This document shows positions 48,267 to 52,538 of a stretch of DNA of 64,000 bases, piece after piece (position 1 is the stretch's first letter; each line of letters opens with the position of its first letter). The notes under the pieces are model-generated. The model made no database searches. It was not told the DNA's origin and saw only the letters and a list, made by a program, of their open reading frames with translations. This DNA comes from Ruegeria aquimaris (GTDB lineage: Bacteria; Pseudomonadota; Alphaproteobacteria; Rhodobacterales; Rhodobacteraceae), in the NCBI RefSeq assembly GCF_025751555.1, contig NZ_JAOWLB010000002.1, positions 124,001-188,000 on the forward strand. Reading direction: 5' to 3'. The translations under genes were made by a program, and so were the position numbers.

Positions 48267-49157
48267 TCAGCGACGCAATGCAACCCGCGCGGCAAGCCAT
48301 GCCACAAACATCACCGCGAAGTCGACCGCCAGCCAGGCACGCAGGTTTTCTGTATCGGCCATATCGTACGGCAGCAGATAGAGCGACAGCCCGCTGAGGC
48401 TGCCGGGCATGGCGACAATCAGCAATGCCACCATGTTGTTGAACAGGTGCATGGCGATGGCCGGGCCAAGCGTCCCCGCCCGGGCCGTGATATCGGCGGT
48501 GAGCATCCCGAAGACAAACGCCCAGAGCGCGATCAACAATGCGTTTTCGCCCGCCTCGGCAGGTAGGTAATGACCCAGGGCAAACAGCAAGGATGGCAGC
48601 GCCATCCAGGAGACACGGCTCTGGAACCGCGCCGCGACGGTTTGCTGAACATACCCTCGGAACAGGATTTCCTCGGCGCTGGTCTGGATGCCGATGGCGA
48701 CAAGCGACAATGGAAGCAGCGGCAGCCAGAGCCCGAGCGACAGATTGTCCTCCAGCGGTTCGCCCATGTCATAGGGCGGCAGGATCAGCAGGACGACACC
48801 AAGGCCAACCAGAGTCCGGAAAACCCGCCAGAACTGCGAAACCGCAAGATGCGGTTGGCCCAGGATGCCCCAGAAGCGTCGCTTGTTGACAATCCGTGCG
48901 GCCAAGGCAACGCCCAGCGTAACAAACAGGAAACTGCTCAACAGCAGGAGCAGACCCGCTGGCGTCGTTCCCGCCAGAAAGCTCTCGGTCCATTCCGGCG
49001 AGGCAAACCTGGAAACCAGAGCCAGGACCGCTGTGTTGCAGGCCAGCACAAACACCGAGATCAGCACCAGCCCCAGAAACAGCCGCCATATCTCCGGCCT
49101 CAATCTGCCCGGTGTAACCAGCGCTTCATGCGCGGCATAAGGGTCTGGCTCAGGCAT
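48267..49157 (-). CDS. CPBP family intramembrane metalloprotease
   Basis: 296 residues from the ATG at 49157, which overlaps the ABC gene's stop by 8 bases; AGGAGG lies 11 bases upstream. The three CPBP motifs are present: EEILFRGYVQQ, FALGHYLP and HLFNNMVALL in membrane segments. Abi/CAAX-type putative protease; targets unknown. Coupled to the upstream unusual ABC fusion. Confidence 0.9.
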   Translation of the reverse strand: MPEPDPYAAHEALVTPGRLRPEIWRLFLGLVLISVFVLACNTAVLALVSRFASPEWTESFLAGTTPAGLLLLLSSFLFVTLGVALAARIVNKRRFWGILGQPHLAVSQFWRVFRTLVGLGVVLLILPPYDMGEPLEDNLSLGLWLPLLPLSLVAIGIQTSAEEILFRGYVQQTVAARFQSRVSWMALPSLLFALGHYLPAEAGENALLIALWAFVFGMLTADITARAGTLGPAIAMHLFNNMVALLIVAMPGSLSGLSLYLLPYDMADTENLRAWLAVDFAVMFVAWLAARVALRR

Positions 49158-52100
49158 CGGCAGATTTGCCTCCTGCATCGGGGAACTTGGTGCTCATCCC
49201 CGGGTCGGTAAAATCAGTAATGTTGAGGCGCGCGGCACGCAGGATGTCGCCCGCCTCGACCAGGTGCCCGGAAACGGTCTGAAGAAGCTGTAGTGACACG
49301 CTGGCATCATGCTCGATCACCGCCCTGAACTCTTCGGCTCCGATCCGCAGGAACTTGCTGTCAGTTTCGGCAATCAGGTCCATCGGTCTTGGCTGTCGGG
49401 TGATGATCGACAGATCACCGATCAGCCGTCCCGGCTCAACCAGAGTGATCGGCCGCTCACCCGGGGCATCGTCCGGCCAGCGCAGCGCGGCGCGGCCTTC
49501 GAGGCAGAGATAGGCCGCATCCGCCGTCTGCCCGTGCGAAAAGATCACCTGTCCGGCCGGGACATCGTACCATTGCGCCGAAAACGCCAGCAGCCGCTGG
49601 TTACGGGTGTCGAGCCGCGCAAATAGCGGGGTCGCGGCGATGATCTTGAGCTTGCGATCCAGATCGACCCCCGCCATTTCACCCAGATTCAAATGCGCAT
49701 CGGAAATGCCATCGATCCGGCCATGTCTTATCTCAACAAACAGATCATAGGCTTCGGGGTGAGCAAAACGGTCTTCCATAAAAAGGATAATCGCGTTCGG
49801 CAGCAGGTCGCGCAGCTTCTGGCGCGTGCGCAAACGGCTTTCCGAATCATGGCTGGCCAACACCTTATCCAGAATCAGAATGTCCGGCCGCTTGATCGCG
49901 GCACGGGAAAACGCCGCGCGTTCCTGAAACACCGTCGGCAGGTTTGCACCACCCAGACCCGCAGGCAGGTCATAGATGATGGCGGCCAGTTTCCGCCTCA
50001 GCCCGGCTTCGTTCATGATCTCGGCAACGGTGTCTTCGACCTCTTCGGCGCGCGCCCCCGCCATGATCGAAACGCGCCCGAACAACGCGTTTTCCAGCAC
50101 TGTCAGGCGCGGGATGTAAGTGGACGGGTCAACCGCAACAAAGTCGCTGCCAACCAGCCCCCGCAACCGGTCCGCACGGGTGCGGCGTATGGCAAGGATC
50201 TTCTCCTTGTATTCCTCGGGGAACGCGGGACCTATCTGTTCGGCGGTGAGCAGGAAGGGAACCGTCATCAACAGCGCCCGGTCATCCGTGCTCAGCGCCT
50301 CTGCCCCGCGCGCCGAGTGCCTGTCCGCAATGTCGAGCAGGTGCAGATAGGTCTCGTCTTCGAGCCCGAGCTTACGGAACAGCGGGTGCTGGGTCCCGTC
50401 CCGGCCAAAGGTCTGCCGCAATGTCGCGACAACGCCCAGCGCCATCGCCATCGCCTCCTCCGCCAGGCCTTCCTCGTACAGCATCGTGATAAAGCGACCA
50501 TCCGAGACCAGTTGATCCTGCGAAATCTTGCGGGCGGGAGCGGCATATAACAGGTTGCCGCCCAACGGCACCGCGGGGTTGAAACGCTCCGGATCGAACC
50601 GATGGACCAGATCGGCCAGGCCGCGCTCGGCCAACCGATGCGCAACGGTCTCGCGAAGCCCCACGATCTCGTCGGCCAGTGCGGCATGGGCGCGAACGTC
50701 AATCATCGACCGCAGGGTGCGGCGAAACATGAACTCGTCGGTACCCATTGCCTCGACCAGCTGAAACCACCAGTCCCGGACCTGATCGCCATCCTCCAGC
50801 CCGGCCAGAGCGGGGTCGATCCAGTCGGCGTCCAGTCCGTCGCCGCTGTTCCCGGCCTGAAGCGCCTCGATCTGCTTGGTCGTCGGTCGTGTCTTCGATG
50901 CATCACCTTGCTGCGGACGGACGCGCAGCGGCATCATCAGGTTGTCCCCCAGCGTTCCGTCGAACAGATAAGGCCGGGAATGCGCGTGCCCGATCCGTGC
51001 GGCAATGACGGATTGATGCAATTCGTTGATCGGGTATCCGGACACCAGCACCTGCCCCCGCGAGGGCACGACCTCGCGCGTCAGCAATTGCGCAAGAGCA
51101 GCACGTTCCGCCGGGCGATCGGACTGAACCGCAACCCGCGCACCGGGCGGAATGATCAGGTTGATATCCTCCAGGATCGTGTTGCCATCCTGATCCCGCA
51201 CCGTGACATCGCGCAGCTCGATCGGCCCATCCAGCCGCGGAATGGTCTCCGGCTCGCCTTCAAACAGTTCGGCCGGGATCATGCCCAGCGGCGCAAACCG
51301 TTCCGTCACCACCTGCCAGCGCAGCGACATGTCCTGCACCTGGTTGTAGTAGTCGAGAAGCTCCTTCCACGGGCTGGACAGATCCTTGTAGGCCGCCAGC
51401 GCCGCCACTAGCGCCCCCACCGTGATCTGCCCCTTGATCGCCAGATAGCCACCCACCGAATAGAACAGGAACGGCGTCATCTGGGAGATCAGGTTGTTCA
51501 GGAACTTCATGAAGAATTTCTTCTGATAGATCCTGAAGCGGATATCGTAGAGCCGCCCGAGCCGATCGGTCACCTGCGCCAGCCGGTAGCGCCAGCCGCC
51601 GTTAGCGCGCAGGTCCGAGATTCCGGCGGCGGTTTCACCGATTTCGGAACTCAGCCGCCGGACTTCCTGAATGCGGGCCTTGTTCAGCAGGTTGATCTGG
51701 CGCTGAAGCTTGGGAATGATCCAGGCCTGCAACGGGATCAGCGCCACCGAGGCAAGCCCGAACCAGACGTTCTGTATGAACAGGAACGTCACGATGGTCA
51801 GCATCTGCCCCGCCTGGAAAACAGGTTGGGCGATGGCATCGCCCATCAGCCCGCCCATCGGCTCGGCCTCGGAGGTGATCATCGAGACCAGCTCCCCCTG
51901 ACTGGTGGTCTGGTAGTAGCTGCGCGGGAACCGCATCATTCGACCGATCAGCATATACCGCAGCCGCCGGAGCATCCGTTCGCTCAACACCCCTTTCATG
52001 GTGTTGAGTTTCATCTTCATCAGCCCGCTGATCAGCACCATTGCCAAAAACGCCAGGCACAAGGCAAACAGGTACTGGATCTGGGTCAGTTCGACCCCCC

Positions 52101-52266
52101 AGACAGTGACGCGGTTCAACTCGGCGCCGATGGCGTCGTTGATGATCCGTTTGGGCAGTTCCAGCGAGGCATAGAGAAAGGGAAAGGAAAGCAGCGTCAG
52201 GGCCAGCAGGACCAGTTGCTGTTTCCTGGAGTGTTTCCAGATAAAGGAAAACAGACTGGGCTCCAT
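49150..52266 (-). CDS. Pseudo-ABC exporter fused to cNMP-binding domain
   Basis: 1038 residues from the ATG at 52266. Residues 1-320: six-segment ABC exporter membrane domain (RFPRSYYQTTSQGELVSMI is the family loop). About 345-850: nucleotide-binding domain split by a roughly 300-residue insertion (445-745). ATPase motifs are degenerate: no GxxGxGKST (PGARVAVQSDRPAERAAL in place), no LSGGQ (LPTVFQ), Walker B reads ILILDKVLASHD with Lys for the catalytic Glu, and the His loop is MEDRF. About 871-1000: cyclic-nucleotide-binding-type domain (GRLIGDLSIITRQPRPMDLI). Likely regulatory rather than an active pump. Confidence 0.85.
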   Translation of the reverse strand: MEPSLFSFIWKHSRKQQLVLLALTLLSFPFLYASLELPKRIINDAIGAELNRVTVWGVELTQIQYLFALCLAFLAMVLISGLMKMKLNTMKGVLSERMLRRLRYMLIGRMMRFPRSYYQTTSQGELVSMITSEAEPMGGLMGDAIAQPVFQAGQMLTIVTFLFIQNVWFGLASVALIPLQAWIIPKLQRQINLLNKARIQEVRRLSSEIGETAAGISDLRANGGWRYRLAQVTDRLGRLYDIRFRIYQKKFFMKFLNNLISQMTPFLFYSVGGYLAIKGQITVGALVAALAAYKDLSSPWKELLDYYNQVQDMSLRWQVVTERFAPLGMIPAELFEGEPETIPRLDGPIELRDVTVRDQDGNTILEDINLIIPPGARVAVQSDRPAERAALAQLLTREVVPSRGQVLVSGYPINELHQSVIAARIGHAHSRPYLFDGTLGDNLMMPLRVRPQQGDASKTRPTTKQIEALQAGNSGDGLDADWIDPALAGLEDGDQVRDWWFQLVEAMGTDEFMFRRTLRSMIDVRAHAALADEIVGLRETVAHRLAERGLADLVHRFDPERFNPAVPLGGNLLYAAPARKISQDQLVSDGRFITMLYEEGLAEEAMAMALGVVATLRQTFGRDGTQHPLFRKLGLEDETYLHLLDIADRHSARGAEALSTDDRALLMTVPFLLTAEQIGPAFPEEYKEKILAIRRTRADRLRGLVGSDFVAVDPSTYIPRLTVLENALFGRVSIMAGARAEEVEDTVAEIMNEAGLRRKLAAIIYDLPAGLGGANLPTVFQERAAFSRAAIKRPDILILDKVLASHDSESRLRTRQKLRDLLPNAIILFMEDRFAHPEAYDLFVEIRHGRIDGISDAHLNLGEMAGVDLDRKLKIIAATPLFARLDTRNQRLLAFSAQWYDVPAGQVIFSHGQTADAAYLCLEGRAALRWPDDAPGERPITLVEPGRLIGDLSIITRQPRPMDLIAETDSKFLRIGAEEFRAVIEHDASVSLQLLQTVSGHLVEAGDILRAARLNITDFTDPGMSTKFPDAGGKSADA

Positions 52267-52538
52267 GCCCCACCTTTCGTCACCGCACTGTAAACCCACG
52301 GTCCAGCGCCTGAAACGCGGCTATTCCCGGGATAAGGACGGTAAGCACTGCAAGCCGCAAATTCAAGCGCTCCGGCTGGTATGGGGACCTCGCAGCCCTA
52401 CGCCATAAACCGGACGATACAGCGATTGTTTCCAACCGGATCAAAAAATGCAGCCAAACTTGGTTCTTGGGCTTAATTAGTTAACATCCTTTCGCTAAAC
52501 AGAGAAAACACCAAGTCACCACTTTTGACGGGTCGGGA

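Follow-up and report, generated by a model that had tools for sequence, protein, structure and literature searches.

A conserved, ATPase-degenerate ABC-exporter-like protein of Ruegeria aquimaris with a cyclic-nucleotide-type domain, from a family that co-occurs with glycosyltransferase genes

Locus and protein architecture

We analyzed a window of 64,000 nucleotides from Ruegeria aquimaris (GCF_025751555.1, contig NZ_JAOWLB010000002.1, positions 124,001-188,000); the window is this whole stretch of DNA, all coordinates below are window positions, and every window feature described lies on the minus strand. It encodes a 1038-residue protein that resembles ATP-binding cassette (ABC) exporters (49150..52266), has lost the canonical ATPase motifs, and ends in a cyclic nucleoside monophosphate (cNMP)-binding domain (CNBD). 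Its relatives form an alphaproteobacterial family that is paired with CNBDs and co-occurs with glycosyltransferase (GT) genes. The ABC gene starts at an ATG at 52266, and the same frame is also opened by a GTG at 52299. Its downstream neighbor (48267..49157) encodes a predicted CPBP/Rce1-like intramembrane protease and overlaps it by 8 bases if read from an inner ATG (49157), or by 29 bases if read from the ATG at 49178. A reading-frame check reproduced the gene order, the frames, and the 8-base overlap given in an initial annotation of this locus.

The protein opens with a transmembrane domain (residues 1-325, 51292..52266), which matches Pfam ABC_membrane (PF00664) with 78.6 bits, above its cut-off, and is the part most highly conserved in the family. 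The nucleotide-binding domain (NBD), whose N-terminal half we placed by model and alignment at residues 344-422 (51001..51237), is harder to recognize: Pfam ABC_tran scored 23.2 bits, under its cut-off of 25. The top NCBIfam profile for the whole protein was MsbA TIGR02203 (146.8 bits; cut-off 602), and a Pfam scan of the protein gave no C39 or other peptidase domain. An AlphaFold model built from 57 window and related sequences had a mean predicted local distance difference test score (pLDDT) of 80.3 and a predicted template modeling score of 0.64. The top 50 Foldseek matches of this model were all ABC exporters or ABCC proteins (E 4e-16 to 3e-14), including P-glycoprotein, TmrAB, and PCAT1, with modest TM-scores (0.19-0.34 by query, at most 0.59 by target) and large root-mean-square deviations. 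The matches listed (60 of 629) when we searched PDB sequences with an ABC profile were ABC proteins. We considered and rejected an anti-phage defense system, as the PADLOC matches, to two TIR-effector models (25.2 and 23.3 bits), covered the CNBD part alone (residues 893-1015).

A widespread family with two paralogues

The ABC family was found in 17 of 100 sampled genomes of the window's GTDB family (E ≤ 1e-50) and, at class level, in about one third of the genomes sampled (78 of 240). Named close homologues, taken from the best 80 of 575 matches and therefore biased toward close relatives, were mainly roseobacters (Ruegeria, Tropicibacter, Sulfitobacter, and Roseobacter), with a few from Granulosicoccus, Oceanospirillaceae, and other gammaproteobacterial contigs of metagenome-assembled genomes. 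In addition, 342 plasmid records contained a match (E ≤ 1e-40), among them 144 from Rhizobium and 80 from Sinorhizobium, plus roseobacters and Azospirillum; the annotated plasmid records examined label these proteins as ABC transporters. Among the matches listed in our search of the open-access literature, none described this ABC family, the GT operon, or the pairing with CNBDs.

The window's genome carries a second copy, here called B, that is 51% identical to the window protein (A) and lies beside a DUF3307 gene. In a maximum-likelihood tree of 76 rows, three of which had long and uncertain branches, A and B were sister clades inside a window-family clade on a long branch (support 100). A was present in 37 of 295 family genomes, and B accompanied it in all 37 (36 directly and one, G055, by a divergent B-like copy on a long branch); B occurred alone in 10. 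These co-occurrences were tallied by eye from searches that scored two candidates per genome. Among the copies counted as A are a fragment (G357) and an A' copy (G431), one of those counted as B is split (G457), and two genomes with near-equal scores (G008 and G432), other basal copies, and relatives of 30-34% identity were counted as neither. The restriction of A to genomes with B fits a heterodimer and also fits simple descent.

Two further observations concern these paralogues. Six A-type copies with 54-55% identity (L187, L188, L189, L191, L196, and L198) lie on contigs labeled Granulosicoccus, Oceanospirillaceae, or uncultured gammaproteobacteria, and may reflect either transfer from roseobacters or mis-binning. 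The DUF3307 gene stood divergently beside B in all 17 of the named B loci and in 10 of 13 B-type neighborhoods (L057-L068 and L097; for example, L057:10916-11386).

Loss of canonical ATP motifs under purifying selection

Measured against the canonical motifs of ABC ATPases, the window protein reads QSDRPAERA at the Walker A position (residues 381-389, 51100..51126), NLPTVFQER at the signature position (residues 775-783, 49918..49944), ILILD followed by Lys801 in place of the catalytic Glu at Walker B (49864..49881), and FMEDRF, without His, at the H-loop position (49765..49782). Replacements have thus occurred at the P-loop Gly, the signature Ser-Gly-Gly, the catalytic Glu, and the H-loop His, as the initial annotation had seen, and none of these canonical residues is the commonest in A or B. 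We counted motifs over 77 A, 31 B, 3 basal, and 29 distant rows; rows are not genomes, and some A and B rows are one genome under two handles (e.g., L037 and L137). The Walker-A Lys was missing from every A, B, and basal row, and Arg took its place in 66, 30, and 3 of them, respectively. No A or B row had the Q-loop Gln, and the catalytic Glu was outside the four commonest residues in both paralogues; the Walker B Asp was retained in 54 A rows and 18 B rows.

Degeneration was less advanced in the more remote homologues (about 30-40% identity). Distant rows had Lys (17/29) or Arg (11/29) at the Walker-A Lys position and kept the catalytic Glu in 13 of 29. The next residue, which is Ser or Thr in canonical exporters, was Asp or Glu in 25 of 29. 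As aligned here, the whole family is unusual in its ATP motifs and the A/B clade is furthest gone. A composite site between A and B with one canonical half looks impossible on this alignment, since both paralogues lack the catalytic motifs.

The gene is nonetheless maintained. Against its nearest homologue (L137), the ratio of nonsynonymous to synonymous substitution rates (dN/dS) was 0.071 for the whole gene, 0.071 for an insertion described below, 0.047 for the CNBD, and 0.04-0.13 across parts of the NBD, with 0.04 for its C-terminal half; whole-gene values against two other homologues, L138 and L195, were 0.159 and 0.081. By these ratios, the A-type gene is under purifying selection. Full-length homologues with about 50-95% identity have open frames in dozens of genomes, and together with the ratio of 0.071 this indicates that the protein is more than chance. 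No intact-motif relative turned up among the 108 A and B rows, and the loss of ATP motifs in a conserved protein supports the initial proposal that it would not hydrolyze ATP in the normal way.

Partial repeat origin of the NBD insertion

The NBD is split by an insertion (residues 445-722, 50101..50934) that had been put at 300 residues; it is present, and its size is about 280. Blocks of the insertion had pLDDT values of 79-92 in the full model, apart from one block at 65, and the insertion modeled separately reached 84.5. Distant family members carry it too, with conservation about equal to that of the rest of the NBD. A motif consisting of a Q-loop strand plus an ENLLFG helix occurs three times in this region. 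The first unit, a Q-loop-like strand and ENL-type helix with the Gln replaced (residues 423-444, 50935..51000), directly precedes the insertion; the second (residues 553-706, 50149..50610) lies within it; and the third (residues 707-790, 49897..50148) runs to the degenerate signature.

We compared profiles of these units with one another and with intact NBDs. Units 2 and 3 matched at 95-97%. Unit 1 matched unit 3 at 36% with distant rows and 0.3% with all rows, and unit 2 at 7% and 22%, respectively; 18 control pairs per row set gave at most 0.71%. In a realigned run with distant rows, the values were 67% for units 1 and 3 and 97% for units 2 and 3. Compared with the intact NBDs of two other exporters from the window's own genome, unit 1 (its start) matched at 92%, unit 2 at 1-6%, and unit 3 (residues 707-806) at 98%, with controls at or below 0.6%. 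We read these profiles to mean that the insertion is in part made of duplicated copies of the NBD's own Q-loop/helical segment, with two units well supported and a third probable; we call the triplication certain for only the last two units because the first repeat scores weaker. A foreign origin was rejected, since the insertion model had no match to PDB structures at E ≤ 0.001 and the profiles indicate internal repeats.

A CNBD accompanies the family

The C-terminal cyclic-nucleotide-type domain noted initially is recognized by Pfam cNMP_binding (PF00027), which matches residues 902-986 with 54.7 bits (cut-off 27.5); in the model the domain spans residues 862-1010 (49237..49683). The association of this sensor-type domain with the ABC protein extends well beyond the window. 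We inspected 40 class-sample neighborhoods (39 distant members and one B, from 39 of the 78 positive class genomes), and in all 40 a CNBD match started on the same strand, about 150 bases or less from where the ABC match ended; the CNBD was a separate gene directly downstream in 35 and fused in 5. Fusions were also seen outside the A/B clade, in L070, L071, L080, and L081 of the tree and in Azospirillum thermophilum (L271:6001-9063); fusion therefore arose more than once or was undone.

Proteins that bind cNMPs have a Glu and an Arg in the phosphate-binding cassette. Both residues were present in 22 of 22 separate CNBDs called by the gene picker (20 of these lie in the 40 neighborhoods) and in 31 of 31 B rows. 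All 77 A rows have Asp and Arg; in the window protein the cassette (49387..49419) contains G950, D951 at the Glu position, and R960. The annotated plasmid records examined describe the separate CNBD genes as Crp/Fnr regulators or as CNBD proteins. However, in the six separate CNBD proteins that we scanned, Pfam found no DNA-binding domain, the CNBD alone being above cut-off, which makes a sensory component of an export complex a likelier role for this neighbor than that of a transcription factor.

Co-occurrence with a glycosyltransferase module and cyclases

Many distant members adjoin a divergent operon that encodes two GT28-like and two GT4 glycosyltransferases, a histidine phosphatase, and an unassigned protein. 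A Methyltransf_17-like gene downstream of the ABC gene was called in 9 of the 40 neighborhoods (Pfam-checked in one). Using one GT28 protein as a probe (class cut E ≤ 1e-60), we found GT28 in 76 of the 240 class genomes: 74 had both genes, 4 had only the ABC gene, 2 had only the GT gene, and 160 had neither. The 74 genomes span 46 families, and the two genes lay within 6 kb on one contig in 51 of them; in the other 23 they did not, in some cases perhaps owing to contig breaks. The genome lists behind this comparison and the family labels were transcribed by hand from result tables. In the family sample, GT was present in all 17 genomes with the ABC gene; among the 83 genomes without it, 7 matched at E ≤ 1e-20 and 3 at E ≤ 1e-100, a cut chosen after a score gap was noticed. 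The GT operon is complete in the window's own genome, where a Methyltransf_17 gene and an Opp/YejF-like importer adjoin it.

In each of two rhizobial strains, Sinorhizobium meliloti R28 and Rhizobium leguminosarum BIHB 1148, the ABC-like and CNBD genes share a single cluster with a class III cyclase, the importer, and three glycosyltransferases. The cyclase domains of both clusters are above the Pfam cut-off. Elsewhere, 3 of 39 distant members (L109, L110, and L121; Pfam-confirmed) have a cyclase gene as their direct neighbor, as do 10 of 31 B loci (tblastn, Pfam-checked); in L113 and L136 one lies farther off.

Two other genes recur near the module. In roseobacters, rhizobia, and Azospirillum, an Opp/YejF-like peptide importer accompanies either the ABC-like gene or the GT operon (e.g., L266:5935-11897, L247:174-6045, and L271:9213-15045). 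In 15 of the 17 loci read, the GT operon also had nearby a gene belonging to one sequence cluster, which is of MscS type by Pfam in L247 (L247:6109-8652).

The CPBP neighbor

The downstream gene matched Pfam PF02517 (Rce1-like) with 53.5 bits (cut-off 22.4), and a sequence search of PDB with the CPBP protein gave no match. Its initial description as a CPBP metalloprotease holds for the CPBP/Rce1-like assignment but needs correcting in its metallo- part: the nearest NCBIfam models, all below their cut-offs, present CPBP proteins as intramembrane proteases, several of them of the glutamic type, and not as metalloproteases. CPBP is tied to accD rather than to the ABC gene. Among the 30 best CPBP loci, accD was present in all 30, and the ABC gene was present in 12 and absent in 17, one locus (L224) being cut by a contig end. 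CPBP occurred in 70 of 100 family genomes versus 17 of 100 for the ABC gene, and their co-occurrence (14 of 17 ABC genomes versus 56 of 83 others) was not significant (p = 0.26). CPBP was found in 49 of 63 A-type loci and in none of the other 14 (tblastn E ≤ 1e-6), of which at least 4 (L156, L172, L183, and L194) are A genes within the same accD locus. B and the distant relatives have neighbors other than CPBP. We therefore rejected a functional partnership with CPBP as the main reading: CPBP is commoner than the ABC gene, sits at accD without it, and does not significantly co-occur with it.

Interpretation and alternative explanations

The reading we favor, with a probability of about one half, is that the window protein is a putative subunit of a glycan module: exporter-like, degenerate as an ATPase, and regulated by cNMPs. 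It would act in an A/B heterodimer, with CPBP as a bystander. The paralogues A and B would provide the membrane (export or flipping) step of the GT module and would pair with each other. Their CNBDs would sense cAMP or cGMP supplied by class III cyclases, whose genes in some cases adjoin those of the family. Binding of the ligand, replacing or adding to weak ATP binding, would switch the transmembrane domain, which in turn would gate export of a glycan or glycolipid made by the GT enzymes. CPBP would be a gene of the accD locus that later came to be co-translated with A. The GT association of the relatives suggests such signal-controlled glycan export rather than the protease control that the initial annotation had put forward; relative to that annotation, the picture gains a glycan module and a sensor pairing that extends across the family, and it lends no support to protease control. 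If correct, a nucleotide signal would directly control the export of surface glycans, and the family would be a natural experiment on the ABC fold without ATP hydrolysis. The GT operon tied to it is uncharacterized, and it is present in Sinorhizobium and Rhizobium, both of which are genetically easy. More tentatively, the exporter pair might have exchanged ATP for a cyclic nucleotide altogether, with ATP catalysis lost in both subunits, the tandem Q-loop/helical repeats of the NBD as the coupling element and cNMP as the gate of glycan export; we regard this fuller version as doubtful.

Several observations weigh against the favored reading. The A cassette has Asp in place of Glu and differs in the positions that follow the Arg, and for this reason A may not bind cNMPs. 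Cyclase genes are not directly beside the ABC/CNBD pair in 36 of 39 distant loci. The ABC/GT association gave Fisher p values of 3e-54 in the class and 2e-16 in the family (E ≤ 1e-100), which ignore phylogeny; there are genomes with only the ABC gene (G143, G170, G267, and G308) or only the GT gene (G124 and G223), and roseobacters carry the A gene at a site unlinked to the GT operon. Likewise, the occurrence of A only within B genomes could be plain phylogeny. The Lys retained in the majority of distant rows means that less degenerate relatives may still use ATP. Finally, in 42 of the 49 loci with both genes, the ABC and CPBP genes overlap by 1-14 bases (with start codons chosen by script), and because of these overlaps A and CPBP are probably co-translated. 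In the annotated Ruegeria sp. B32 the order is the same, with one base between the genes.

One alternative is that the protein is a true exporter with non-canonical use of ATP, in which a rebuilt P-loop and signature bind and slowly hydrolyze ATP, alone or as an A/B composite, and the CNBD only modulates transport. The Arg that takes the Walker-A Lys position in most A and B rows, the frequent Walker B Asp, and the strong selection on the C-terminal NBD half are consistent with this, and an Arg also occurs in the degenerate Walker A of ABCG5/G8 (PMC7756269). The replacement of the P-loop Gly, signature, catalytic Glu, and H-loop His, and the absence of the Q-loop Gln from all A and B rows, argue against it, and we consider this explanation possible but on the unlikely side. 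Rather unlikely, in our estimate, is that the CNBD senses a non-cyclic ligand such as ppGpp and so couples starvation to glycan export. In its favor, the CNBD of the exporter HetC binds ppGpp and not cAMP (PMC10986499), and the A cassette is altered; against it, the separate and B CNBDs retain the cassette Glu and Arg typical of cNMP binders, and several members have a cyclase gene as a neighbor.

Control of the adjacent CPBP intramembrane protease by a nucleotide-sensing scaffold, the initial proposal, draws on the overlap of the two genes, but it is difficult to reconcile with accD-linked CPBP genes that lack the ABC gene, with the far greater frequency of CPBP, with A loci that lack CPBP even at accD, and with the different neighbors of B and the distant relatives. 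We judge it improbable. That the gene is a decaying exporter heading for a pseudogene would account for the lost ATP motifs, yet the low dN/dS values throughout the gene, the lineage-wide conservation of the replacement motifs, and the full-length frames refute this for the sampled lineages and leave it a negligible chance.

Comparison with known systems

HetC of Nostoc PCC 7120, a PCAT-type ABC exporter with an N-terminal cNMP domain, resembles the window protein in having a fused CNBD, which in HetC is needed for function; it differs in the N-terminal position of that domain, its C39 peptidase, and its essential catalytic ATPase Glu, as described in PMC10986499, whereas the window protein has a C-terminal CNBD, no peptidase, and no intact ATPase motifs. 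TmrAB, TM287/288, TAP, and ABCC proteins with one degenerate site share the exporter fold and the arrangement as paralogue pairs (PMC7756269). Such pairs keep one canonical site, unlike A and B, which both lack the catalytic motifs, have extra NBD repeats and a CNBD, and would pair only by our proposal. The lipid A flippase MsbA, whose profile was the top NCBIfam match, lacks the resemblance in three respects: the insertion, the CNBD, and the motif loss of the window protein. Another exporter-associated CNBD protein, cyc_nuc_ocin (TIGR03896) of bacteriocin-type transport, is a weak match (53.6 bits; cut-off 161), and we know of no glycosyltransferase link for that group.

The MsbA2 operon of S. 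meliloti on pSymB (SMb21188-21191) also places an ABC exporter beside glycosyltransferases, according to PMC3687685. We rejected MsbA2 as an experimentally known member of the family, as the S. meliloti family member and the proteins of its operon had no match at E ≤ 1e-10 in the region of its operon (pSymB 880-975 kb); the S. meliloti member lies outside that region, at pSymB 841.7-844.4 kb. SMb20813, which may or may not be this family member, is named as an S. meliloti msbA homologue in PMC10945364. In S. meliloti 1021 (NC_003078, 841723-844435), the ABC-like gene spans one base more than in most strains, which may be either a sequencing difference or a frameshift.

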